64,000 bases of DNA from Trichormus sp. M33_DOE_039 (lineage in GTDB: Bacteria; Cyanobacteriota; Cyanobacteriia; Cyanobacteriales; Nostocaceae), in assembly GCA_015296085.1 (NCBI GenBank), contig DVDT01000005.1, forward strand, positions 124,001 through 188,000, written 5' to 3'. The notes under the pieces are model-generated. The model was not told the DNA's origin. It worked only from the letters and a program-made list of their open reading frames with translations, and searched no databases. The position numbers and the translations under genes are program-made. Numbering within the stretch: position 1 is the stretch's first letter; each line of letters starts with the position of its first letter. Positions 3,426-13,900 of the stretch are shown one piece after another.

Positions 3426-6400
3426 TCAGGCTTCCGATTGCATTTCTTTTGCCTGTTTTTCAATCACTTTAGCAATATCAGTCCAAACCTGATCGCGATC
3501 GCCGTTTTCTTCAGAGAAGCTAATAACTGCTTTGCCATCTTGTGGTAAGGCTTGCAAATCTCTAAGCACTGGTTCGCTGCTCCACATACACGGGCGAATG
3601 ATGATGGGGATAACACGCATACCTTCTGCTTTGCGGCGTTTAAGCAGTTGGGGAACTTCCTTATCATTAATGAAGCGAGATGCCAGGAAATTTTTGCTCA
3701 CAAGCAGTACAGCCAAATCACATTCATTCATTGCTGTTTGAATCGCTTGATACCACTCATCACCCGGTTCAATTCGTCGGTCTTGCCAAGCGTCTATAAT
3801 TCCTCGCCGTTGCATACTCGCAAGCATAGTAACTAACTCATCTTTGAATGCTTCATCTTTGTGAGCGTAGCTAATAAATACTTTGAGTGGTTGCATTGGA
3901 GCTTTGATATTGGCAGGAAATTTACTCAAGGTTGCTTCCCATTGCTCATGCAGGGTTTCACGCAGTGGTGCAAAGCCTGGATGATCGAATGGGATAGCAT
4001 ACAAATTCAGCACTAAATTAAAGAGATTTACTGGATAGTGGGTAGGATTGGAAAAATCACCAGGGTTGCATCCTTTCAAGTCGTGGGGGTTTATTGATGT
4101 CGTTTGACTCTCCAAACAGATGGAAATAAAGCGTCTTTTGGTAACTAGCCGTTCTTGAATAATTTTTACATCGTCTTTGAGTACATCGGCTGATTGTTTC
4201 CAGGCTTGCTGATAAGCAGGAGTATCTATTACAACTACATAATCATCTGGCTTGACTTGATCAGCATAGCTGACTAAATAGACCTGTGCATTCTGCAAAT
4301 CATGAATGAGTTGTTTAACCCAGCTTTTTTGCTCCGGCACATGGCTCAGATAGCAGCGAGGGGCAGCCCATGAGCGGCGGTAGCTTTTGATTTTAGAAAG
4401 ATAAGTTTCATAAGTTTTTCGGAGATGGGCGATCGCTTCTTCACGCTGTAACCAAGGAGACGCACTAGTGCCGATGCTAGGCTGTTGAACTGCTGGCAGA
4501 TCCACTTTACTGCCACACTCATCACAGAAAGCAAATGTTTTACCCTCTCGGCTGCGCTTGGTGACAGTAGCACGTTCCAAGCGGTGGCTATTGGGACAAA
4601 TCACGGGCGGGAAGCGAGTTACTTCGACTTCGCGCTGATATAAAAATTGCTCAAATAATTCTTGAAATATCTTGCGCCCAGATGAGGGCATCTTGTCACC
4701 GTAATATAGCACCAACTCGATTTCGCCTTCGCGCTCTTCAATCATACGAAAGCCGCAGACTTGACCCGTTGCAATTTCGTATTGAGCCTGATTCTGCCAA
4801 TGATTGATGCGAATGAAAGAGGGAGTATAACCGAGTAAGACTACCAGCGTAGCGTAGATATTCTCAACCTGACCGCGCACTATGTAAGAAATATCATCCG
4901 TGAAGGGAATGTCATCTTGTAGCGGGCGTTTTTGCTTGATCAGTCCTGGGAAGATAAGTAGCGTATCGTTATCCAGGGTTTCCCGAAAGCAAATGCTGTG
5001 ATCAAGAAAACGCAAAACGGCTGCATCCAGTAAGATTTGCTGTTCAGACTGTTCTAAACCCTTAAGTTCATCAAAGGCATAGTTGCCCTGTAAAAGTTCC
5101 GTTTCATTTACAGCTCCCAATTCACGGGGATGTTTGTCTGCTTGAAGCACAATCGACGCTGCCAAACTCACCAACAGATCAGGAGTGAGTAAGATGTATT
5201 TATCACCCGCAGAGCCACGAAGAATACAAACATAGCCATGATTTTCAAGATGACCTACCGCCGTCATCATTTCAGCATCGGTGAACTGCCAATCTGGGTC
5301 AGTAGTTTGCAACTGCTGACGCAGTTCTTTTGGTGAAACAAGAACATTTTCACGGTCTGGCTTTTCCTTGAGAGCCAATACATAATCCTTTATGCGCTTG
5401 AAGGTAACGGTAGTGACTGTAGTAGTCATCTCGTCCCACGGGATCTGCACTTTGAGGAGAGCCAGCAGTTCCTGTAGTCCCTCACCAGTCATAGCACTGG
5501 TGCTGATGTAACCACCACTGATGCCATAACGCTGACAAAATTGATCCATCTCCTGCTGAGAAAGAGTCGGCGCACCTCGATCAACCCTTGCACCAACCAA
5601 AACGCTAGGAGGTAGTTTAGCTTTACCCTTTAACTGTTCTAGCCAAAACTCCACCCCTTTAAGTGGATCTTGTCGGTTGCTAGGATCAAATAAGACCATT
5701 GCAGCATCCACATTGTCAAGAAAGATGGAATGGACAGAGCGGTACACGTGCTGACCTGCCAAATCCCATAACACTGCTTCGCATTCTGTACCGTCATCGC
5801 GGGTTTTGCCTAGTTGATCAATTACCCAAAATTGTTGACCATGAGTGGAGGCGTGTTCTTTAAATTGATTGTGCGCTAATCGGTAGCCTAGCCCAGTTTT
5901 GCCGACACCAGAATCACCAACTAAAACAAGTTTGGCAGTAGTATAACGGATAGAATTATTAGATGTTTGACTCAAAAGGGTTTCTACATCTAAGTCCCAG
6001 ATAAATAGAATTGTGTCTTCTTCGCCCATCGTTACCAACCGACGGGAATTTGGATGAATTGCGATACTACGAGCAGCAGAATTAGATTTTTGTTGCAAAG
6101 TACATACAAGTTGCCAATTTTTGAAGAGCCTAATATGTGTTGAAGAATCCCATGATGTTGATACTAAAAATATTCCATCTGCCGAAAAAGCAACATCCTT
6201 AACTTCATCTGTATGGTCTTCAAGTACGGTCAGATTGCTCCATGTTTTGGTATCCCAAATGCGGATTGTTTTGTCGTCAGAGGCTGAAGCCAATTTGGAA
6301 CCATCGGGTGACCACGCTAAACTTCGGATAAGATCTCTATGCACCTGGTTAAGCACTTTCAAGCATTTCCAAGTTTTCGTTGTCCAAATACGGATTACAC

Positions 6401-6965
6401 CATCTCTAGAACCTGAAGCCAATTTGAAGCCGTTCGGTGACCACGCTAAACTCCAGATAGTATGTTTATGACCCTCTAGTAGTGTTAGCGTGTCCCAGGT
6501 TTCAGTGTTCCAAATGTGGATTGTTGCATCGTCAGAGGCTGAAGCCAGTTTGTAGCCATCAGGTGACCAAGCTACCCTATTAATGTCGTCTCGATGACCC
6601 TCCAACACTGCTAAACATTCCCAAGTTTTAGTGTTCCAAATGCGGATTGTATAGTCGCTGGAACCCGAAGCAAATTTAGAGCCATCGGGTGACCAATCTA
6701 CACTCCAGACACGATCTGTATGTCCCTGAAGAATTACTAAACATTTCCCATGTGCCACATCCCAGATGCGGATCGTTTCGTCAATGGATGAAGAGGCTAA
6801 TAGCTGTCCGTCTGGCGACCAAGCAATGCGATTAAGGTAGCCTGTATGCCCTCTTAAAATTCGGCGCAGTGTTAAGCCGGGTACAGGTGAATCACCCACG
6901 CTGAAACCATCAGCAGGTTCTGGGTTATAGTCGGGTAAGTCGGGAAGAAAATCGGATGGGGGCAT
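3426..6965 (-). CDS. WD40 - Ras-like GTPase - zinc ribbon - tandem TIR protein
   Basis: 1179 aa, multidomain and soluble. Residues 35-330 form seven WD40 blades (repeated WSPDG..LAS.S.D.TIRIW). Residues 343-510 are a Rab/Roc-type GTPase with G1 GDSGVGKT (350-357), G3 WDLAGQ (400-405), a G4 variant ARVDRG (459-464) and G5 TSAMTGEG. A COR/winged-helix-like linker follows (about 520-780), then Cys790, His794, Cys814 and Cys817, which look like a zinc ribbon. Residues 870-995 read as a diverged TIR/SEFIR-like fold (RCYLSHVPEQKSWVKQL). Residues 1026-1170 are a clear TIR domain (LKVFISYAHKDEAFKDELV) with a candidate catalytic Glu at SRFINDKEVP. A WD40 sensor, a nucleotide switch and a TIR effector are the parts of an NLR-like receptor. 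TIR domains can cleave NAD+ or make cyclic ADP-ribose signals; that activity is inference here. It is monocistronic. Confidence 0.88.
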   Translation of the reverse strand: MPPSDFLPDLPDYNPEPADGFSVGDSPVPGLTLRRILRGHTGYLNRIAWSPDGQLLASSSIDETIRIWDVAHGKCLVILQGHTDRVWSVDWSPDGSKFASGSSDYTIRIWNTKTWECLAVLEGHRDDINRVAWSPDGYKLASASDDATIHIWNTETWDTLTLLEGHKHTIWSLAWSPNGFKLASGSRDGVIRIWTTKTWKCLKVLNQVHRDLIRSLAWSPDGSKLASASDDKTIRIWDTKTWSNLTVLEDHTDEVKDVAFSADGIFLVSTSWDSSTHIRLFKNWQLVCTLQQKSNSAARSIAIHPNSRRLVTMGEEDTILFIWDLDVETLLSQTSNNSIRYTTAKLVLVGDSGVGKTGLGYRLAHNQFKEHASTHGQQFWVIDQLGKTRDDGTECEAVLWDLAGQHVYRSVHSIFLDNVDAAMVLFDPSNRQDPLKGVEFWLEQLKGKAKLPPSVLVGARVDRGAPTLSQQEMDQFCQRYGISGGYISTSAMTGEGLQELLALLKVQIPWDEMTTTVTTVTFKRIKDYVLALKEKPDRENVLVSPKELRQQLQTTDPDWQFTDAEMMTAVGHLENHGYVCILRGSAGDKYILLTPDLLVSLAASIVLQADKHPRELGAVNETELLQGNYAFDELKGLEQSEQQILLDAAVLRFLDHSICFRETLDNDTLLIFPGLIKQKRPLQDDIPFTDDISYIVRGQVENIYATLVVLLGYTPSFIRINHWQNQAQYEIATGQVCGFRMIEEREGEIELVLYYGDKMPSSGRKIFQELFEQFLYQREVEVTRFPPVICPNSHRLERATVTKRSREGKTFAFCDECGSKVDLPAVQQPSIGTSASPWLQREEAIAHLRKTYETYLSKIKSYRRSWAAPRCYLSHVPEQKSWVKQLIHDLQNAQVYLVSYADQVKPDDYVVVIDTPAYQQAWKQSADVLKDDVKIIQERLVTKRRFISICLESQTTSINPHDLKGCNPGDFSNPTHYPVNLFNLVLNLYAIPFDHPGFAPLRETLHEQWEATLSKFPANIKAPMQPLKVFISYAHKDEAFKDELVTMLASMQRRGIIDAWQDRRIEPGDEWYQAIQTAMNECDLAVLLVSKNFLASRFINDKEVPQLLKRRKAEGMRVIPIIIRPCMWSSEPVLRDLQALPQDGKAVISFSEENGDRDQVWTDIAKVIEKQAKEMQSEA

Positions 6966-7493
6966 AGCTGAGAAACTTTCAGAGCTTTGTTTTGGGTGAG
7001 CTAGTCTGGTTCGCTGCTTGTCTACCTATGTCAACTGCATTTGATTCAGTTTTGAGTGAGACAGAAATACAGTGTCCGCTTAACAATGAATTTGGGCTAA
7101 GGAAGTTACTGAAGAGGTAATAATCCTTAGATTATTTTTATTGCTTATACTTGCTAAAGTGCGATCGCCATAACAAGCATTTGAGCATTTATTTAATGGA
7201 AAACTCTGAGATAGAGACATATAAGCTTTTCTGCCATAATTGGTTATTTTGATAAATGCTGGCAATATTTTCCTAATTATAAGGAAAATCTTCTAAATCT
7301 ATCTTAAATAGGGTGTAGTAAAAACACTGGTAATTCTTACAGGGGTGAACAAAGTGTAGAACAGGTGCGATCAGATACTGTGCTATAATGGCGTACAGAG
7401 TTTGAGAAAACGAGATGTTGTAAAGACGCTGCAAAAATTTTGACGTTCATTTTCTCTCATTGACAGTAATTTCCTTACAAGGAGTATCAAGCA
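6966..7493. other. Divergent promoter region between the WD40-TIR gene and the MNIO operon
   Basis: 528 bp, AT-rich, with one HIP1-like site near 7164 and no convincing open frame. It should carry the promoters of both divergent units. The best promoter match is the extended -10 box at 7381-7389, listed separately. Confidence 0.5.
7381..7389 (+). promoter_or_regulatory. Predicted extended -10 promoter of the TIGR04222/MNIO operon
   Basis: TGCTATAAT is a perfect extended -10 (TGN plus TATAAT). No good -35 hexamer is found 16-18 bp upstream, which is usual for extended -10 promoters. Transcription would start near 7396 and leave a leader of about 98 nt before the ATG at 7494. Confidence 0.45.
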
Positions 7494-8468
7494 ATGGATT
7501 CATTGCTGCATAACCCAATTGCAGATATGTATGGGCCTGATTTTTTAGTGCTTTACGGTTCTGTAATTGCCATAACGTTGGTAGTTTGTTGGCGTTTAGT
7601 GCAAGATCCCAGCAAAAATCAGCCTTTACCGTTAATTCCTGCCAATCCAGATCCTTACAAAATTGCTTATCTGCGTTCTCAAAATGCCGGAATCGCTCAC
7701 ACAGCATTATTTAATTTGATTTTGCAAGGTTATTTGCAAGTTAGTGAACAGTCCATCAGCCAAACACCAGATCATCCTGATGTGGCTAAATTGCAGCCAA
7801 TAGAAAATGCAGTTTTTCAGAAAATTTCTATCCCCTCCACAGCAACAGCATCTCTGTGGTTAGCAAGCCAAGTTGTGCAACCATACAGCCACGATTATGA
7901 AGAACAACTGCACAGTGAACAATTATTAACTACTACAAACCATCACCAATGGCGGATTCAAGTTGGCTTAATTGGGGCAATGATTATTTTTAGCCTTGGT
8001 GGTTATAAACTCCTCATCGCCTTAGCTAAAGGACGCTATAACGTTGCTTTCTTGATCATCATGGGTGTAGCTTCTATTATCTGGTTAATGTGGCTAGTTA
8101 GTAAGCGATCGCTACTCAATGATCGAGGCAAAAAATATCTGCAACAACTACAGGAAACATTCTCACAATTAAAATCCAAAGCCAAATCTAAAACCGCTTC
8201 TTTGTCAGAATACAACTTACTCGTCGCACTGTTTGGCGTGGAAGCATTGGCGGGAACAGTTTACAACCCCTATCACGAAATCTTCTTCCCCCCACAATTC
8301 GCCAGAACAAGCAGATACAGTAGTTCTAGTTCATCTAGTAGTTCATGCAGTAGTGCTTCTGGCTGCGGTGGCGGTAGTTCATGCAGTAGTAGTTCCTGTA
8401 GCAGTAGTTCCTGCGGTAGTTCCTGCGGTGGTGGTTGCGGTGGTGGTTGTGGTGGTTGTGGCGGTTAA
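7494..8468 (+). CDS. TIGR04222-type membrane protein with a nine-cysteine Ser/Gly tail; candidate MNIO substrate
   Basis: 324 aa. AAGGAG at 7479-7484 lies nine bases before the ATG. One membrane helix is near residues 16-36 (DFLVLYGSVIAITLVVCW). A soluble region of about 120 residues follows, then two more membrane helices (about 162-206). From residue 276 to the end there is a 49-residue tail made only of Ser, Gly, Cys and one Ala. Its nine Cys are at 285, 291, 297, 302, 307, 311, 315, 319 and 322, with spacing shrinking from six to three. The overall form matches the TIGR04222 family as I remember it: a conserved membrane part with a variable low-complexity C-terminus. The next two genes encode an MNIO enzyme and its probable partner, so the tail is an obvious target for cysteine modification. 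That link is inference. Outside the tail I count one cysteine, in the first helix. Confidence 0.8.
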   Translation: MDSLLHNPIADMYGPDFLVLYGSVIAITLVVCWRLVQDPSKNQPLPLIPANPDPYKIAYLRSQNAGIAHTALFNLILQGYLQVSEQSISQTPDHPDVAKLQPIENAVFQKISIPSTATASLWLASQVVQPYSHDYEEQLHSEQLLTTTNHHQWRIQVGLIGAMIIFSLGGYKLLIALAKGRYNVAFLIIMGVASIIWLMWLVSKRSLLNDRGKKYLQQLQETFSQLKSKAKSKTASLSEYNLLVALFGVEALAGTVYNPYHEIFFPPQFARTSRYSSSSSSSSSCSSASGCGGGSSCSSSSCSSSSCGSSCGGGCGGGCGGCGG

Positions 8469-8493
8469 ATCAGTTATCAAAAAACTTTTTCTT

Positions 8494-8531
8494 CCCCTAA
8501 ACCCCTACACCCTTATACCCCCACACCCCTA
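8494..8531. repeat. STRR between the first two genes of the MNIO operon
   Basis: CCCCTA / ACCCCTACACCC / TTATACCC units fill most of the 71-bp gap between the stop at 8468 and the next ATG. It is the opposite orientation of the 2393 array. It may alter the spacing or mRNA folding between genes that are probably co-transcribed. Confidence 0.8.
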
Positions 8532-8539
8532 ATTCTTCC

Positions 8540-9373
8540 ATGTTCACTCACCTACCATCTCTAGGCGTTGGGTTGGGATTTCGCCAACCATTCAAAAGTG
8601 ATTTGTTTCTCAACCGTCAGCAGGTGGACTTTCTGGAAATCGTGGCGGAACATTACTTACAACCATCTTGGCAACAACAGCAAGAGTTAGAATTATTAGC
8701 CAGCCATTTCCCCCTGATTCCCCACGCTATTAATTTATCTTTAGGGAGTGCGGAAGGTGTAGACACAGATTATCTTCGTCAACTAGCAGCCTTAATTAAA
8801 CAACTTAACCCGCCTTGGTGGAGTGAGCATATCTGCTTTACGAGAGCAGGTGGGGTTGATATTGGACATTTATCACCCCTACCTTACACTAAAGAAGCCG
8901 TAAAAGTTCTGTGTCGCAACATTGCAGAGGTGCAACGCTGGATTGATGTGCCGTTAATTTTGGAAAATATTACTTACATGGTGACTCTTCCTAGTGCGGA
9001 AATGACCGAAGCGCAATTTTTGGCGGAAGTGGTCAAAAATGCTGATTGTGGTTTGTTATTGGATGTGACCAACCTGTACATTAATGCGGTGAATCATGGC
9101 TATGATGTGCAGCAATTTATGCAAGATTTGCCTTGGGAACGTGTCGTGCAATTGCATTTTGTGGGTGGACATTGGCATGATGGCATATTGATTGATAGTC
9201 ATTCCCAAGCTACACCCCCTCAAATATGGGAACTTATTGATGAAGTGGTGGCGCGTGTGGCGATAAAAGGAATCGTTTTAGAAAGGGATGAAAATATACC
9301 AGAATTTGCACAGTTGACAGCAGAACTGCAACAAGCACGAGAAATTGGGAGGAGGCACGGAAGATGGGGTTAA
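8540..9373 (+). CDS. DUF692 / MNIO multinuclear non-heme iron oxidase
   Basis: 277 aa, a TIM-barrel enzyme of the DUF692 family, now called MNIO. Characterised relatives (MbnB, TglH, bufferin enzymes) use two or three irons to modify cysteines of peptide substrates. The expected metal-ligand set is present: His62 (IPHAINLS), His97 (SEHICF), Glu142 (ILENITY), Asp175 (LLLDVTN), His206 (QLHFVGG), Asp219 and His221 (IDSHSQ) and Glu248 (VLERDE). The N-terminal GVGLGFR also fits. The assignment of each ligand is by pattern and from memory. The gene overlaps the next one by 10 bp and follows the Cys-tail gene by 71 bp on the same strand. Its likely job is to oxidise or rearrange cysteines in that tail. 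I see no clear Shine-Dalgarno before the ATG. Confidence 0.88.
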   Translation: MFTHLPSLGVGLGFRQPFKSDLFLNRQQVDFLEIVAEHYLQPSWQQQQELELLASHFPLIPHAINLSLGSAEGVDTDYLRQLAALIKQLNPPWWSEHICFTRAGGVDIGHLSPLPYTKEAVKVLCRNIAEVQRWIDVPLILENITYMVTLPSAEMTEAQFLAEVVKNADCGLLLDVTNLYINAVNHGYDVQQFMQDLPWERVVQLHFVGGHWHDGILIDSHSQATPPQIWELIDEVVARVAIKGIVLERDENIPEFAQLTAELQQAREIGRRHGRWG

Positions 9374-9912
9374 AGCAAACCCAGCAACTTTTAGCCCAAC
9401 TTTACACTAATACAGAATTGAGATCGCGTTTCTTTGCCAATCCCCAAGCCGTTGGTTTAGAAATGGGACTCAATGACGATGAGGCGCGACAATTCGCGGA
9501 ACTTTCAGCCGCACAGGTGAATGTGTTTGCTAACTCCTTGATATGGAAGCGGTTAGGAGAAGTGCGGGAAATGCTACCGCGTACAGCTAAAGCGTTGGGG
9601 AAAAATTTCACGACGCTGTTTTGGCGATATGCAGAAACTACTATTCCCCAAGGTGTGAAAAAACATCGCGAAGATGCGATCGCTTTTGCTGACTTTATCA
9701 TCAATGTCGCCCAAACCGAAGGCATTGAACCAGTGTGGATAGAAGATTTAGTGCGCTACGAACAAATTTGGCTCTTAACTTACCCACAAGATAGATGTTA
9801 CAAAATTCTGCGCTTGCGTTACGCTGTGCATCAAGACTTAAGTAAGAAAAATGTGCTGGCTATTTGGTGGCGTTTCGGGAGACGTTCACCACTACATCAT
9901 TTTGTACTTTAG
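9364..9912 (+). CDS. Probable MNIO partner protein (SCO6045-like)
   Basis: 182 aa, soluble. The ATG overlaps the end of the MNIO gene and has a strong Shine-Dalgarno, GGGAGGAGG at 9347-9355. The N-terminal 40 residues are helical (LLAQLYTNTELRSRFF) and resemble the start of partner proteins encoded beside MNIOs. The middle (ANSLIWKRLGEVREMLPRTAKALGKNFTTLFWRYAE) and the Arg-rich end (RLRYAVHQDL) recall the SCO6045-like family, which I remember as occurring beside DUF692 and TIGR04222 genes in actinobacteria. MNIO partners generally bring the substrate to the enzyme, and I infer that role here. Its 3' end overlaps the convergent MocR gene by 4 bp. Confidence 0.7.
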   Translation: MGLKQTQQLLAQLYTNTELRSRFFANPQAVGLEMGLNDDEARQFAELSAAQVNVFANSLIWKRLGEVREMLPRTAKALGKNFTTLFWRYAETTIPQGVKKHREDAIAFADFIINVAQTEGIEPVWIEDLVRYEQIWLLTYPQDRCYKILRLRYAVHQDLSKKNVLAIWWRFGRRSPLHHFVL

Positions 9913-11372
9913 TCGGAAATTACCTCCGCTAGTCGCCTAACGCCCTCTTGAATTTGCTGTTCACTGAGTTCCGCATATCCAAAGATAAATTCACTACCAG
10001 GACTAGCATTTAAATATTGTGGATAGGCTGCGCCGATACCGACGTTAGCTAATGCAGCCCGTTTGACAATTTCATCATCAGGAATTTCAGTCTTGATTTT
10101 TACCATCAGGTGCATCCCCGCGTTTTCTCCCATAATTTCCACACTGTCGCCAAAATGCTCAAACAAAGACTGTACTAAAATTTGTCGGCGTTGGTTGTAG
10201 AGCGATCGCATCCGTCTAATGTGCCGTTCTAAATGTCCTTCTGTAATAAAATCAGTCAGGGCGTATTGTTCCAATAGACTACATTGTCTGTCTGCTAGCC
10301 ATTTCGCCCGCGCAAACACATGAACTAAATTTTCTGGTAAAACTAAATAACCCAAGCGCAAAGCCGGAAATAGAACTTTAGAAAACGTCCCGACGTAAAT
10401 AATCGAGTTACCTTGATCTAATCCTTGTAATGCTGGTATGGGACGTTCACCATAACGAAATTCGCTATCATAGTCATCCTCAATCATCATCACCCCAGAC
10501 TTTTGCGCCCAAGCTAATAACTCTAGTCTGCGGGGGAGTGATAAAACCGCCCCTGTAGGGAATTGATGCGATGGGGTGATATACAGAAGTTTAATGTTAG
10601 GAATTACACTTGTTTTTAGTTCATCAACTATTAATCCTGATTGATCTACAGCTACGGGAAATAACTTAGCTCCTTGTGCTAAAAAAGCCCGCCTCGCACC
10701 GAGATAGCCTGGCTCTTCCACCGCAACCCAATCACCCCGATCAATGAGCAAACGTGTAATTAGGTCAATTCCTTGCTGTGAACCACCGACAATCACGATT
10801 TGTTCAGCACTACAATTTACCGCCCTAGAGCGCGAAATATAGGAAGCGATCGCCTCTCGTAATGCTTTATTTCCCAAAGAATAAGAAGTATAATCTAGCA
10901 CCTCTGAGTGAGAGCGACAATAGCGAGAAATTAACTTGCGCCATAAATCTATCGGGAAATGATCAAAAGCAGGTCTACCGTAGCTAAAACTGATTTCTAG
11001 TTCTGCTTCTGGGAGGCGCAAAAATGCGTTGTCATTTAGACTTTCACCATAAGCTGATAACTGTATTGGAGAATTTGCTGGTGATGATTTTGACGGTGTT
11101 GGTGTAGCGTTGAGTAAATCGTCAGGAAGTTGACGACAAACAAAAGTTCCCGAACCCACAATGGTTTCTAGATAACCTTCACTCAGAAGTAGTTCATAAC
11201 CTTGAGTGATGGTAGCACGGGAAACACCAAGTAATTGAGCAAGCGATCGCGTTGAAGGCAGCTTTTGTCCAGACATTAATCTTCCCGCAAGAATAGCTTG
11301 GCGTAGTTCCTCGTAAACTTGGCGATGCAGAGGTAAAGGCGCGTTTGGGTCGATATTAATTGTAAAGTCCAT
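9909..11372 (-). CDS. MocR/PdxR-type GntR regulator with aminotransferase-like domain
   Basis: 487 aa. Residues 1-75 are a GntR winged helix (LPLHRQVYEELRQAILAGRLMSGQKLPSTRSLAQLLGVSRATITQGYE, split by the usual turns). From about residue 120 the chain follows a fold-type I aminotransferase with the PLP lysine in YVGTFSKVLFPALRLGY and the preceding EDDYDSEFRY. MocR proteins use PLP or a PLP-linked ligand to control vitamin B6 or amino-acid genes, and often regulate a divergent gene. Here the divergent neighbour is a PNPOx-like gene at 11798, so regulation of that gene is the natural inference. A composite repeat of about 250 bp now lies between them. Confidence 0.88.
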   Translation of the reverse strand: MDFTINIDPNAPLPLHRQVYEELRQAILAGRLMSGQKLPSTRSLAQLLGVSRATITQGYELLLSEGYLETIVGSGTFVCRQLPDDLLNATPTPSKSSPANSPIQLSAYGESLNDNAFLRLPEAELEISFSYGRPAFDHFPIDLWRKLISRYCRSHSEVLDYTSYSLGNKALREAIASYISRSRAVNCSAEQIVIVGGSQQGIDLITRLLIDRGDWVAVEEPGYLGARRAFLAQGAKLFPVAVDQSGLIVDELKTSVIPNIKLLYITPSHQFPTGAVLSLPRRLELLAWAQKSGVMMIEDDYDSEFRYGERPIPALQGLDQGNSIIYVGTFSKVLFPALRLGYLVLPENLVHVFARAKWLADRQCSLLEQYALTDFITEGHLERHIRRMRSLYNQRRQILVQSLFEHFGDSVEIMGENAGMHLMVKIKTEIPDDEIVKRAALANVGIGAAYPQYLNASPGSEFIFGYAELSEQQIQEGVRRLAEVISD

Positions 11373-11427
11373 GATTGGGAAAGGCAGGGGGTAAGGGAGC
11401 AGGGGGAAGAACTAATTACTAATGACT

Positions 11428-11676
11428 ACGTGAGTTCGATGACCTCTCTCCTTGCAGCTACGGTGTACACACAAGTCTAATCACCTAGCCCGACAACGTT
11501 TTGATCCCCCCTAACCCCCCTTAAAAAAGGGGGGACAAGAATCAAAGTCCCCCTTTTTAAGGGGGATTTAGGGGGATCAAGCCACATTTTGCACCTAGCC
11601 TAGAGATGTGTGTACACCGTAGCTCCTACAGGGGAGAGGTTTGGAGAGGGGTTTTTAAACTTCGTCGAACTCACGT
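11428..11676. repeat. Composite inverted-repeat element in the regulator/PNPOx intergenic region
   Basis: Bounded by ACGTGAGTTCGATGA (11428-11442) and TTCGTCGAACTCACGT (11661-11676), which are nearly perfect inverted repeats. The interior carries part of the dispersed repeat also present at 17341 and 60544 (CCTCTCTCCTTGCAG and GGGGAGAGGTTTGGAGAGG), split by the MITE at 11457-11623. TGACTAA-type tandem units follow the right end. The rest of the 425-bp intergenic region is AT-rich and must hold the divergent promoters. Confidence 0.7.
11457..11623 (+). mobile_element. MITE, 167 bp, copy 1 (inverted-repeat element without transposase)
   Basis: Terminal inverted repeats GCTACGGTGTACACAC and GTGTGTACACCGTAGC are perfect over 16 bp. 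The centre is a strong palindrome (CCCCCCTTAAAAAAGGGGGG and related arms). A second copy lies in reverse orientation at 60609-60776. Flanks TCCTTGCA on the left and TCCTACAG on the right are a decayed target duplication. Transposition would need an enzyme encoded elsewhere. Confidence 0.85.
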
Positions 11677-11797
11677 TAATGACTAATGACTAATGACTAC
11701 TTTTCACAAGTGGACTGGTTATTTAATGCGAAATTGGCTATTGTGTCATTCCACTGCTCTGAATACTCTAACGATGATAGAGTAGAAATTAACAGTT

Positions 11798-12475
11798 ATG
11801 TCTCAAAAACAAGCACCTAGCCCCAGAACAACCGTTAAACGCGTACCTCAAAGAGCTAAATATGAATCTGACGTAATTTATCAAATTCTGGATGAAGGAT
11901 TAGTCTGTCATGTCGGTTTTGTCGCCCAAGGACAACCTGTTGTGATTCCGACAGCCTACGGAAGAGTAGAAGACACATTGTATATTCACGGCTCACCTGC
12001 TAGCCGGATGTTAAAAACACTCCAACAAGGTCTTGATGTTTGCGTCACAGTGACTTTAATTGATGGACTAATTTTGGCAAGATCAGCATTTCATCACTCG
12101 ATGAATTATCGCTCAGTCGTCGTCTTTGGTAAAGCCACACTAGTAGAAGACGCAGAGCAAAAACTAGCCGCCCTCAAAGCATTTACAGAACACGTTATTT
12201 CGGGAAGATGGCCAGAAGTGCGATCGCCTAGTCCCAAAGAATTGACAGGTACTGTGGTGTTATCTTTACCTTTAGCCGAAGCCTCAGCCAAGGTTCGCAC
12301 TGGCGGGCCTTTGGATGATGAAGCTGATTATCAAATCCCTGTATGGGCTGGAGAAATTCCTTTAAAACTGACTGCGGCTACACCCATCAATGATTCTCGA
12401 TTGGACTCAGGTATTGAAATACCCACCTATGTTAGTCAATACACTAGACCACAAATAGAGGGTGTAGGGGTATGA
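11798..12475 (+). CDS. Pyridoxamine 5'-phosphate oxidase family protein (putative FMN-binding)
   Basis: 225 aa. The split-barrel FMN-binding fold is suggested by GLVCHVGFVAQGQPVVIPTAYG, then the HGS..SRML motif (YIHGSPASRMLKTL) and the later MNYRSVVVFGKATLVED. These are the marks of the PNPOx-like group that sits beside MocR regulators rather than of true PdxH. Flavin reduction or B6 salvage is possible; the substrate is unknown. It is divergent from the MocR gene, which supports B6- or amino-acid-linked control. The last residues (EGVGV and the stop) are encoded by an STRR at 12460, so the C-terminus has probably been rewritten by repeat insertion. Confidence 0.83.
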   Translation: MSQKQAPSPRTTVKRVPQRAKYESDVIYQILDEGLVCHVGFVAQGQPVVIPTAYGRVEDTLYIHGSPASRMLKTLQQGLDVCVTVTLIDGLILARSAFHHSMNYRSVVVFGKATLVEDAEQKLAALKAFTEHVISGRWPEVRSPSPKELTGTVVLSLPLAEASAKVRTGGPLDDEADYQIPVWAGEIPLKLTAATPINDSRLDSGIEIPTYVSQYTRPQIEGVGV

Positions 12476-12494
12476 GGGTGTAGGGGTGTAGGGG
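12460..12494. repeat. STRR overlapping the 3' end of the PNPOx-like gene
   Basis: GGGTGTAGGGGTATGAGGGTG-type units start inside the coding region and supply the TGA stop at 12473-12475. Confidence 0.8.
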
Positions 12495-12551
12495 AAATAT
12501 ATGACGTAATTTTTGGGCTAACATTAATTGCTGATTGGTGTAGGTTTTTAG

Positions 12552-12582
12552 ACCCCCACACTCTTACACCCTTACACCCCTA
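12552..12582. repeat. STRR in inverse orientation to the 12460 array
   Basis: CCCCCACACTCTTACACCC-type units lie 57 bp after the previous STRR and are its approximate reverse complement. The pair could fold into a hairpin downstream of the PNPOx-like gene. Confidence 0.75.
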
Positions 12583-12666
12583 GTTAAATAAAATCAAAAT
12601 TATCTGTAGAATATTCATACAAACAGAGATAATATCTGGAGTAAAAAATCTCAGACATCAAAAAAG

Positions 12667-12698
12667 CACACTAAAGACAAACCTTGTCTGACTGTGCG
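12667..12698 (+). terminator. Two-part hairpin upstream of thrC
   Basis: GCACA and TGTGC enclose AGACAA-acc-TTGTCT, giving an interrupted stem. The T-rich stretch that follows (GAATTCTTGGTTTTA) would allow termination of read-through from the PNPOx-like gene. A CAAAATC-type STRR (12722-12750) lies just after it. It could instead be a leader structure of thrC; I cannot decide. Confidence 0.35.
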
Positions 12699-12808
12699 AA
12701 TTCTTGGTTTTAGGTTGAAGCCCAATCCCAAATCCAAAATCCAAAATTGACTGGCTGAGTAATTGCCACGATCATCCATAATATAATTTTGAATTAATTT
12801 TTAAGCCC

Positions 12809-13900
12809 GTGACTGTAAGCTTGTCTATTGCTCAATCTCATCGCCAACCCTGGCCCGGACTCATTGAAGCCTATCGTGAGTATTTACCCGTCAGCGACAC
12901 TACGCCGATTGTCACCTTATTAGAAGGTAATACTCCCTTGATTCCAGTGCCAGCGATCGCAGAACGTATCGGTAGACAAGTGCGGGTATTTGTGAAATAC
13001 GACGGTCTGAACCCCACTGGTAGTTTTAAAGACCGGGGGATGACAATGGCGATTACCAAAGCCAAGGAAGCGGGAGCAAAAGCAGTAATTTGCGCCAGTA
13101 CCGGCAATACTTCCGCCGCCGCTGCTGCCTATGCGCGCCGTGGGGGAATGAAGGCTTTTGTCTTGATTCCTGATGGTTATGTCGCCTTGGGTAAGCTGGC
13201 GCAAGCTTTACTCTATGGTGCGGAAGTTTTATCAATTAAAGGTAACTTTGACCGCGCCTTAGAAATTGTCCGCGATATGGCGGATAACTATCCGATTACC
13301 TTGGTTAATTCCGTCAATCCCTACCGCTTGGAAGGGCAAAAAACCGGAGCGTTTGAAGTTGTCGATGCTTTAGGTAATGCTCCAGATTGGCTGTGCATTC
13401 CCGTGGGTAATGCAGGCAATATAACAGCATACTGGATGGGCTTTTGTCAATATCACCAAGCAGGGAAATGCGATCGCCTGCCCCGGATGATGGGATTTCA
13501 AGCCGCAGGTGCAGCACCGTTAGTCAACGGTCAACCCGTGAAGCATCCCGACACCATCGCCACAGCCATTCGCATTGGTAATCCCGCTAGTTGGGACAAA
13601 GCGATCGCAGCGCAATCAGCCAGCCAAGGTCAATTTAAAGCTGTCACCGACGAGGAAATTCTCGACGCATACAGACTTTTAGCTTCTTCAGAAGGTATTT
13701 TTTGTGAACCTGCTAGTGCGGCTTCCGTCGCTGGGTTGTTACAGGTGAAAGACCAAGTACCCACAGGCGCAACAGTGGTGTGTGTCTTGACTGGTAACGG
13801 TTTGAAAGACCCTGACACAGCGATTAAACACAGCCACGCGCAATTTAAACAGGGGATTGAGGCAGAATTAGATGATGTCGCTAAGGCGATGGGATTTTAG
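12809..13900 (+). CDS. thrC: Threonine synthase
   Basis: 363 aa, fold-type II PLP enzyme converting O-phospho-L-homoserine to threonine. The PLP lysine is Lys74 in [25 protein letters not shown] is the Asn-containing substrate loop, and a Gly-rich phosphate-binding loop appears in [16 protein letters not shown]. The length is that of the short, bacterial class without an N-terminal extension. Translation starts at GTG (12809). No in-frame ATG is near, and residues after it already align with the family. TATAAT at 12782-12787 is too close to the start for a confident promoter. The gene is monocistronic and followed by a repeat-rich region. Confidence 0.93.

Follow-up and report, generated by a model that had tools for sequence, protein, structure and literature searches.

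A conserved gene unit of a cysteine-tailed TIGR04222 membrane protein, a multinuclear non-heme iron enzyme, and a partner-like protein in Trichormus sp. M33_DOE_039 and other bacteria

Introduction

Could cysteines that are a fixed part of an integral membrane protein be the substrate of a multinuclear non-heme iron-dependent oxidative enzyme (MNIO)? This question is raised by three adjacent genes, here called A, B, and C, in a 64,000-nucleotide stretch of the cyanobacterium Trichormus sp. M33_DOE_039 (assembly GCA_015296085.1, contig DVDT01000005.1, positions 124,001 to 188,000 of the forward strand; hereafter, the window). Gene A encodes a TIGR04222 membrane protein that ends in a Ser/Gly/Cys tail, gene B encodes an MNIO, and gene C encodes a protein that resembles MNIO partners. 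In this work, we compared the locus with its relatives in other genomes and consider it probable that the three genes form one modification unit, in which B and C oxidize the cysteines of the tail where it is anchored, on the cytosolic side of the membrane. The role of the tail as substrate, together with its chemistry, metal, and function, is what we infer.

The underlying idea is not new. The locus had been presented in an earlier note as a candidate for a new MNIO system, yet TIGR04222 proteins have already been proposed as MNIO substrates with Ser/Gly-rich Cys tails and PME-type 2 partners, in clusters found mostly in Actinomycetota (Antoine et al., 2025; PMC12452194). According to the main text of the same source, more than a quarter of TIGR04222 proteins lack C-proximal cysteines and MNIO is missing from a third of the TIGR04222 genomes; the terms NHLP, Nostoc, and cyanobacteri are absent from that main text (PMC12452194). 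Among the papers listed in searches of an open-licence collection, we found no experiment on TIGR04222/MNIO proteins, no paper joining multinuclear non-heme iron, cyanobacteria, and membrane protein, and none joining DUF2207, glycine-rich, and cysteine. What is added here is the occurrence of the unit in several phyla, the division of the tails into two groups, the predicted cytosolic location of the tail, and the NHLP-like character of the partner.

Results and Discussion

Organization of the locus

The features of the locus in the window are as follows.

7494..8468, + strand: gene A, TIGR04222 membrane protein, 324 aa (NCBIfam TIGR04222)
8319..8465, + strand: Ser/Gly/Cys tail of gene A, residues 276-324, nine Cys, probable MNIO substrate, predicted cytosolic (sequence)
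8540..9373, + strand: gene B, MNIO (DUF692, MbnB_TglH_ChrH), 277 aa (PF05114)
9364..9912, + strand: gene C, helical MNIO-partner-like protein, 182 aa (AlphaFold2 model, Foldseek, NF038399)
9364..9373, + strand: overlap of genes B and C, 10 nt (coordinates)
7479..7484, + strand: ribosome-binding-like AAGGAG before gene A (read from sequence)

Gene B starts 71 nt downstream of gene A, and the overlap between B and C, which is identical in 20 of 27 Nostocaceae loci, likely leads to translational coupling. The coordinates therefore agree with the compact operon of three co-directional genes that the earlier note described, but not with its start at 7381; the ATG of gene A lies 113 bases further downstream, at 7494, behind the AAGGAG motif. 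Promoter-like sites between 6900 and 10000 are no more frequent than expected by chance (seven found, 6.5 expected). The genome holds a single TIGR04222 match (E ≤ 0.001) and a single PF05114 match, and the two are side by side.

The product of gene A scores 99.8 bits against the TIGR04222 profile of NCBIfam (cut-off 43; residues 20-253). Its three hydropathy peaks, of 2.15 (residues 18-36), 2.01 (residues 159-177), and 2.59 (residues 184-202), coincide with confident helices in the structure model, which has a predicted local distance difference test score (pLDDT) of 86.6. The last 49 residues, in which nine cysteines are counted, are modeled with low confidence and have no secondary structure. 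These results bear out the earlier description of a three-helix membrane protein with a 49-residue Ser/Gly/Cys tail. The number of tail cysteines is variable, as a relative with an A domain 98% identical to that in the window (L115) has eight through a repeat indel. Residues 70-220 weakly resemble the DUF2207 C-terminal membrane domain PF20990 (22.9 bits; gathering score 33). A Foldseek search with the model found nothing meaningful, and the profile of gene A gave only low-scoring matches to PDB sequences, mostly to the tail region.

Gene B matches PF05114 at 2.5e-93, and the complete ligand pattern that had been read from it (His62, His97, Glu142, Asp175, His206, Asp219, His221, and Glu248) was recovered: all eight residues are invariant in the 11 aligned MNIOs, a set that takes in four enzymes of other MNIO types, and TglH has identical residues at these positions when aligned from the PDB. 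We take these residues to be metal ligands. Judged by its family, the product of gene B is presumably an iron enzyme. The best NCBIfam model for it is BufB (258.8 bits), below the cut-off of 310.

Conservation of the gene unit

A scan of a genome collection that started from the enzyme confirmed at least 550 stretches, and the best 80 MNIO loci were kept. Among these 80 loci, profiles detected A in 76 and C in 77, and the three genes have the same order and strand in 73. Because the scan started from the enzyme, it shows that A follows the enzyme and not the reverse. The record titles of the loci name Cyanobacteria, Acidobacteria, Planctomycetes, Methylocystis and other Alphaproteobacteria, and Deltaproteobacteria/Myxococcales, as well as single metagenome-assembled genomes (MAGs) of other groups, with the caveat that MAG names may be wrong. 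For example, A-B-C also occurs in a MAG titled Akkermansia muciniphila (L179), in which B is 67% identical to that of the window and the bin is possibly mislabeled.

Several loci are incomplete. One begins 828 bases before B, too close to the contig end for A to be judged (L212), and two end at or just after B, with no C visible (L189 and L228). In a 77th locus with A (L231), the gene leaves its frame near its end, and its tail was for this reason not read as a tail; this record is a metagenome assembly, in which the frame break could be an error. A fusion of A with the MNIO gene, considered for the same locus, was rejected, as the 570-aa frame arises where A runs into the frame of B. Another genome (G239, locus L123) has a remnant with a tail-less A, a 76-residue piece of the MNIO, and an intact C.

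In the Nostocaceae sample (145 genomes), TIGR04222 is over the cut-off in 43 genomes and PF05114 is found in 33, with both in 27; in all of these 27, the two genes are neighbors, with a gap of 886 nt in one locus (L130) and at most 175 nt in the others, and the remnant L123 is counted as one of the 27. In the class sample of 194 cyanobacterial genomes, the corresponding numbers are 21, eight, and three. The co-occurrence expected of the families thus holds in the Nostocaceae, where MNIO is found in 27 of the 43 TIGR04222 genomes versus six of the 102 others, and only weakly across the whole class (3/21 versus 5/173). A TIGR04222 match over the cut-off with no PF05114 match was found in 34 cyanobacterial genomes, 18 of the class sample and 16 of the Nostocaceae.

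In ten of the 27 Nostocaceae loci, gene A is present in two or three tandem copies whose tails differ (four to 11 Cys), next to one B and one C; one tandem copy has no tail (L124). A ratio of this kind is typical of precursors and their enzymes and would be expected of A as the substrate. Because the A-B-C unit is conserved and A multiplies while B and C stay single, A is the likely substrate, as had been proposed from the window alone.

It could be argued that the three genes are neighbors by shared ancestry alone and have no joint function, given that other genes also stay nearby in the Nostocaceae, namely, an ion-channel gene in 22 of the 27 loci and a deaminase-like gene (assigned by eye) in 20. 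We find this scarcely credible, because the unit is whole in loci where both of these neighbors are missing (the window, L054, L115, and L137) and in other phyla. The ion-channel gene was itself considered as an operon member upstream of A and rejected, since its gap to A ranges from -28 to 933 nt and it is absent in the window.

Outside the cyanobacteria, TIGR04222 is over the cut-off in eight of the 149 genomes of a Planctomycetota sample. PF05114 was searched only in those eight and in the cyanobacterium G336, and was found in eight of the nine; the genome without a match (G342) has A on a contig of 3.8 kb. The MNIO adjoins A in five of the eight Planctomycetota (G330, G334, G401, G443, and G450) and lies away from it in two, one with a long form of A (G423) and one with an A fragment (G417). 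Second copies of A in G334 and G336 have no adjacent MNIO. The copy in G336, cyanobacterium ESFC-1 (L265, 4493-5557), is a second TIGR04222 protein with a Ser-Cys tail, located away from the single MNIO of the genome, and it is possibly a substrate in trans.

Two groups of cysteine tails

For comparison of the tails, 94 that are linked to an MNIO (the one in the window included) and 31 that are not were collected, for a total of 125 proteins. Left out were three fragments, the tail-less A copies of L124 (second copy, beside the MNIO) and L123 (MNIO remnant), and an unlinked paralog without cysteines (L264). The unlinked set draws on 27 of the 34 cyanobacterial genomes that have TIGR04222 and no PF05114, with G156, G185, G197, G244, G247, G271, and G294 left out; the first of these has one Cys-rich and two Cys-less TIGR04222 copies.

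All 94 linked tails contain at least three cysteines, with a median of 6.5 (range 3-12), and the Methylocystis tails are a minimal form with three to five. The unlinked tails have a median of four (range 0-9), and 20 of the 31 also contain at least three. Hence, the cysteines do not by themselves mark the presence of the enzyme. The groups also differ in sequence context: at least one Ser-Cys pair is found in 86 of the 94 linked versus five of the 31 unlinked tails, and the residues between neighboring cysteines number three or five in 57% of cases in linked tails and most often two (44%) in unlinked tails, although these tail statistics and the Fisher tests on them are not corrected for kinship. 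A CGG motif at the tail end is shared by both (80/94 linked and 20/31 unlinked).

In a quick, midpoint-rooted tree of the A domain (128 rows, several long branches), one group consists of 29 rows without a linked MNIO and the other of 96 linked and three unlinked rows. With only four changes in MNIO linkage over the 128 rows, the tests compare two groups rather than 125 independent proteins. These patterns suggest that an unmodified Cys tail may have been useful first and that the MNIO was added in one lineage, although the tree cannot tell gain from loss. Beside the unlinked A genes, no neighbor family (open reading frames, ORFs, of at least 70 aa) occurs in more than four of 28 loci, and thus no substitute enzyme is evident nearby.

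These observations bear on a different explanation, in which B and C act on another target (an unlinked peptide or some other region of A) and the tail is an unmodified low-complexity element that binds metal or forms disulfides. Cysteines are indeed kept in those 20 unlinked tails even though the cyanobacterial genomes concerned, ESFC-1 excepted, have no PF05114, and the absence of a recurrent neighbor beside unlinked A points the same way. However, A adjoins B in 76 of the best 80 loci, in addition to the copy that leaves its frame, and no other ORF family of at least 70 aa accompanies B as regularly as A and C do (shorter ORFs were not compared). Together with the enrichment of Ser-Cys in linked tails, this makes another target quite unlikely in our view.

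Membrane topology

The following segments bear on the side of the membrane on which the tail resides.

7545..7601, + strand: transmembrane segment 1 (TM1), residues 18-36, probably out-to-in (hydropathy and charge counts)
7968..8099, + strand: transmembrane hairpin of segments 2 and 3 (TM2 and TM3), residues 159-177 and 184-202, followed by a strongly positive flank (hydropathy)

The topology was derived from hydropathy peaks and counts of flanking charges, which is a rule of thumb. Of 62 aligned linked A sequences, 48 have a net negative N-terminus and three a positive one; the flank C-terminal to TM3 has a net positive charge in 60 and a negative charge in none. In a wider set, a positive flank was counted in 89 of 95 linked rows and in all 31 unlinked rows. 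A positive TM3 flank and a negative N-terminus place the tail within reach of a cytosolic enzyme. The N-terminus of gene A is acidic and has no positive start typical of a signal peptide. Furthermore, all 22 long unlinked A rows have an extra hydrophobic segment directly before TM1; the flank N-terminal to it is net positive in 21, and in 20 the residues that separate it from TM1, read directly in these long forms, have a net charge of zero or below. From these charge patterns, the N-terminus is expected inside in the long A proteins and outside in the short ones, and the C-terminus inside in both. Two counts run the other way. In 17 of the 31 unlinked rows, the aligned residues ahead of TM1 have a net positive charge, against an outside N-terminus, and the TM2-TM3 loop carries about one Lys or Arg, against an inside C-terminus. 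Long TIGR04222 proteins of about 450-545 aa, with about 150-200 residues before the first hydrophobic segment, are encoded in most of the loci L040-L052 and L147-L149, and the five that were scanned have no Pfam match over the cut-off.

An exported tail with a periplasmic product is the published placement (Antoine et al., 2025), in which gene A would be a bufferin-like protein on a membrane anchor that buffers copper outside the cytosol. This placement draws on a topology statement from models of other members of the family, and bufferins do act in the periplasm (PMC12452194). The BufB model as the best NCBIfam match of gene B and the short TM2-TM3 loop, which would in this case lie inside and also bears about one Lys or Arg, speak for it as well. 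The positive TM3 flank in nearly all linked and all unlinked sequences and the extra segment of the long relatives, with its positive N-flank, speak against it. We regard the export of the tail as unlikely, and the tail of gene A is, from the charges, most likely cytosolic, contrary to the published placement. The modified membrane surface that was envisaged for the window would accordingly be an inner one, not an outer one.

The partner-like protein

Gene C has no family match in Pfam at E ≤ 1, and hence no DUF2063. The SCO6045-like label of the earlier note gains no support from this, although gene C was not compared directly with SCO6045. Its AlphaFold2 model is confident (pLDDT 92.7), with nine helices and a short three-strand C-terminal end, and the pLDDT is at least 92 throughout the last nine blocks of ten. 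Foldseek found no match at E ≤ 0.001. Among the 50 matches listed, MbnC (7dz9_C) has the highest template modeling score (0.41) and the highest probability (0.51), and NGO1945 and TglI are absent. No sequence match to MbnC was found, and a search of PDB sequences with the profile of gene C gave nothing significant; the best match was nitrile hydratase alpha (E 0.09), and the borosin precursor SonA appeared at E 1.4-1.8. Among 53 members of the C family, weak matches were found to HvfC in three, to ApyI in two, and to DUF2063 in one. On account of the weak fold match and these few weak HvfC/ApyI matches, we link gene C to the MNIO partners, in agreement with its earlier description as partner-like.

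In NCBIfam, gene C matches only two models, both NHLP: NF038399 (24.5 bits, cut-off 40) and TIGR04509 (16.9 bits, cut-off 34). Over the first 60 residues, 47 of the 53 family members match NF038399, an Os1348 model of the NHLP clan (E ≤ 0.1; best 3.8e-10), and 33 match TIGR04509. Five partner proteins of other MNIO loci have no NHLP match at E ≤ 1. In a scan of seven genomes with NF038399, gene C is the top match in each and the sole match in six; in the window genome, it is the one match at E ≤ 0.01. Gene C thus looks like an MNIO partner with a front part similar to the leaders of ribosomally synthesized and post-translationally modified peptides (RiPPs), and this NHLP-like N-terminus may, as we infer, act as a leader in trans.

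A leader-like front could also mean that gene C is itself a RiPP precursor, with an NHLP-type leader and a core, and that gene A is a transporter or sensor. The frequency and strength of the NF038399 matches favor this possibility, but the scores are below the curated cut-off in the window and in all seven genomes scanned, the high confidence of the model extends up to its last residues, leaving no disordered core rich in Cys, and the rest of the protein resembles ApyI/HvfC partners in some members. We rejected gene C as a precursor on these grounds and judge the idea very improbable.

Neighboring genes and other MNIO loci

Next to the operon in the window, a gene on the opposite strand (3426-6965, - strand) encodes a 1179-aa protein that combines WD40 repeats with Roc/Ras GTPase and TIR domains and looks like an NLR-like or signaling protein. 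Downstream (9909-13900), a GntR/aminotransferase regulator of the MocR type is convergent with C and is followed by ORFs of the pyridoxamine-oxidase family and of a pyridoxal phosphate-dependent enzyme. This is a vitamin-B6-like neighborhood, with no metal gene among these ORFs.

Several other MNIO loci were also observed. In another Nostocaceae cluster (L151), a 69-aa peptide (4210-4416), which has a leader-like double-glycine motif and cysteine at its end, precedes an MNIO (4735-5655) and a distant relative of gene C (5671-6489). The same pair of MNIO and partner is present in L152, and in L153 an MNIO adjoins a 69-aa peptide (4220-4426) in which the end after a GG motif contains cysteine. 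Two cyanobacterial bufferin-like loci (L058, 9589-11585; L059, 6793-9089) contain an MNIO, an HvfC-like partner, and a small Cys protein whose start resembles, by eye, a signal peptide.

Proposed mechanism and implications

We propose that gene A, with its N-terminus outside and its C-terminus inside, would keep its disordered Ser/Gly/Cys tail on the cytosolic side of the membrane. Gene C would probably dock to B and present the substrate, and B with C would oxidize some of the tail cysteines. The products would most likely be of the thiooxazole or thioamide type, like those in bufferins and methanobactins; the modified tail would stay attached to the membrane and could most plausibly bind a soft metal such as copper or serve a redox role. 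These products and this role are by analogy with characterized MNIO families.

Several points weigh against this proposal. One near-identical locus has B and C intact, with B 97% identical to that of the window, and has lost A (L155); another has no A (L195), and a third has no C (L183). The cysteine tails that occur without a linked MNIO imply that the tail has some role without the enzyme. TIGR04222 tails have been placed in the periplasm, as a prediction from models of other members (PMC12452194), and the open-licence papers listed provided no mass or metal data. As for gene C, its MbnC match is not significant (E 0.91), and one family member, when rescanned, matched no model (L233). In L155, the ORFs in the place of A (3688-4802) include one that weakly matches the transposase domain DDE_Tnp_1 (E 0.0021, short of its gathering score).

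A bolder version of the modification unit is possible but doubtful. Here, the tail of a full-length membrane protein would be converted in place, with no leader, signal peptide, or cleavage, to a cytosol-facing metal or redox patch; the enzyme would be recruited by C, with its NHLP-clan module acting in trans, and the unlinked, unmodified tail would represent the older state.

If the tail is modified, MNIO chemistry would take in fixed portions of membrane proteins as well as small exported peptides, and a testable function would be available for a widespread family so far without an assigned role. The TIGR04222 groups with and without the enzyme provide a natural comparison of what the modification adds. 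If the tail is cytosolic, bufferin-like periplasmic buffering would be ruled out for this branch. Finally, if an MNIO partner carries an NHLP-like module, this would hint that MNIO docking domains and RiPP leaders have a common origin.

Comparison with known systems

The closest known system is the published cluster of TIGR04222, MNIO, and PME-type 2 partner, which shares the Cys-bearing Ser/Gly C-terminus (nine Cys in 49 residues here), the adjacent MNIO, and the proposal that the tail is the substrate (PMC12452194). Its partner is structurally related to NGO1945/TglI and lacks a DUF2063 signature; for gene C, no DUF2063 match was found, and neither NGO1945 nor TglI is among the 50 fold matches listed. 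The two differ in distribution, as the unit described here is found in cyanobacteria, Acidobacteria, Planctomycetes, and Methylocystis and the published clusters, as given in the main text, mostly in Actinomycetota; moreover, the charges here predict a cytosolic tail, and gene C has an NHLP-like N-terminus.

The bufferin system (BufA/BufB/BufC) resembles the unit in having an MNIO, to whose BufB model gene B is nearest, together with a partner, and in having cysteines as targets (PMC12452194). Bufferin precursors are non-membrane proteins with a Sec signal peptide, whereas gene A encodes a 324-aa three-helix membrane protein. In addition, gene B falls short of the BufB cut-off, and gene C has no Pfam match that would correspond to the DUF2063 partner. 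The similarity of gene A to the DUF2207 C-terminal membrane domain (PF20990) is weak and below the gathering score.

The methanobactin system also pairs an MNIO with a partner (MbnB/MbnC), and MbnC is the nearest among the 50 PDB matches listed for the model of gene C, although the two have no sequence match. Its precursor, MbnA, is a short free peptide. Lastly, the first 60 residues of gene C resemble RiPP leaders of the NHLP/Os1348 type, but gene C has no core, and its model instead continues into a partner-like fold.

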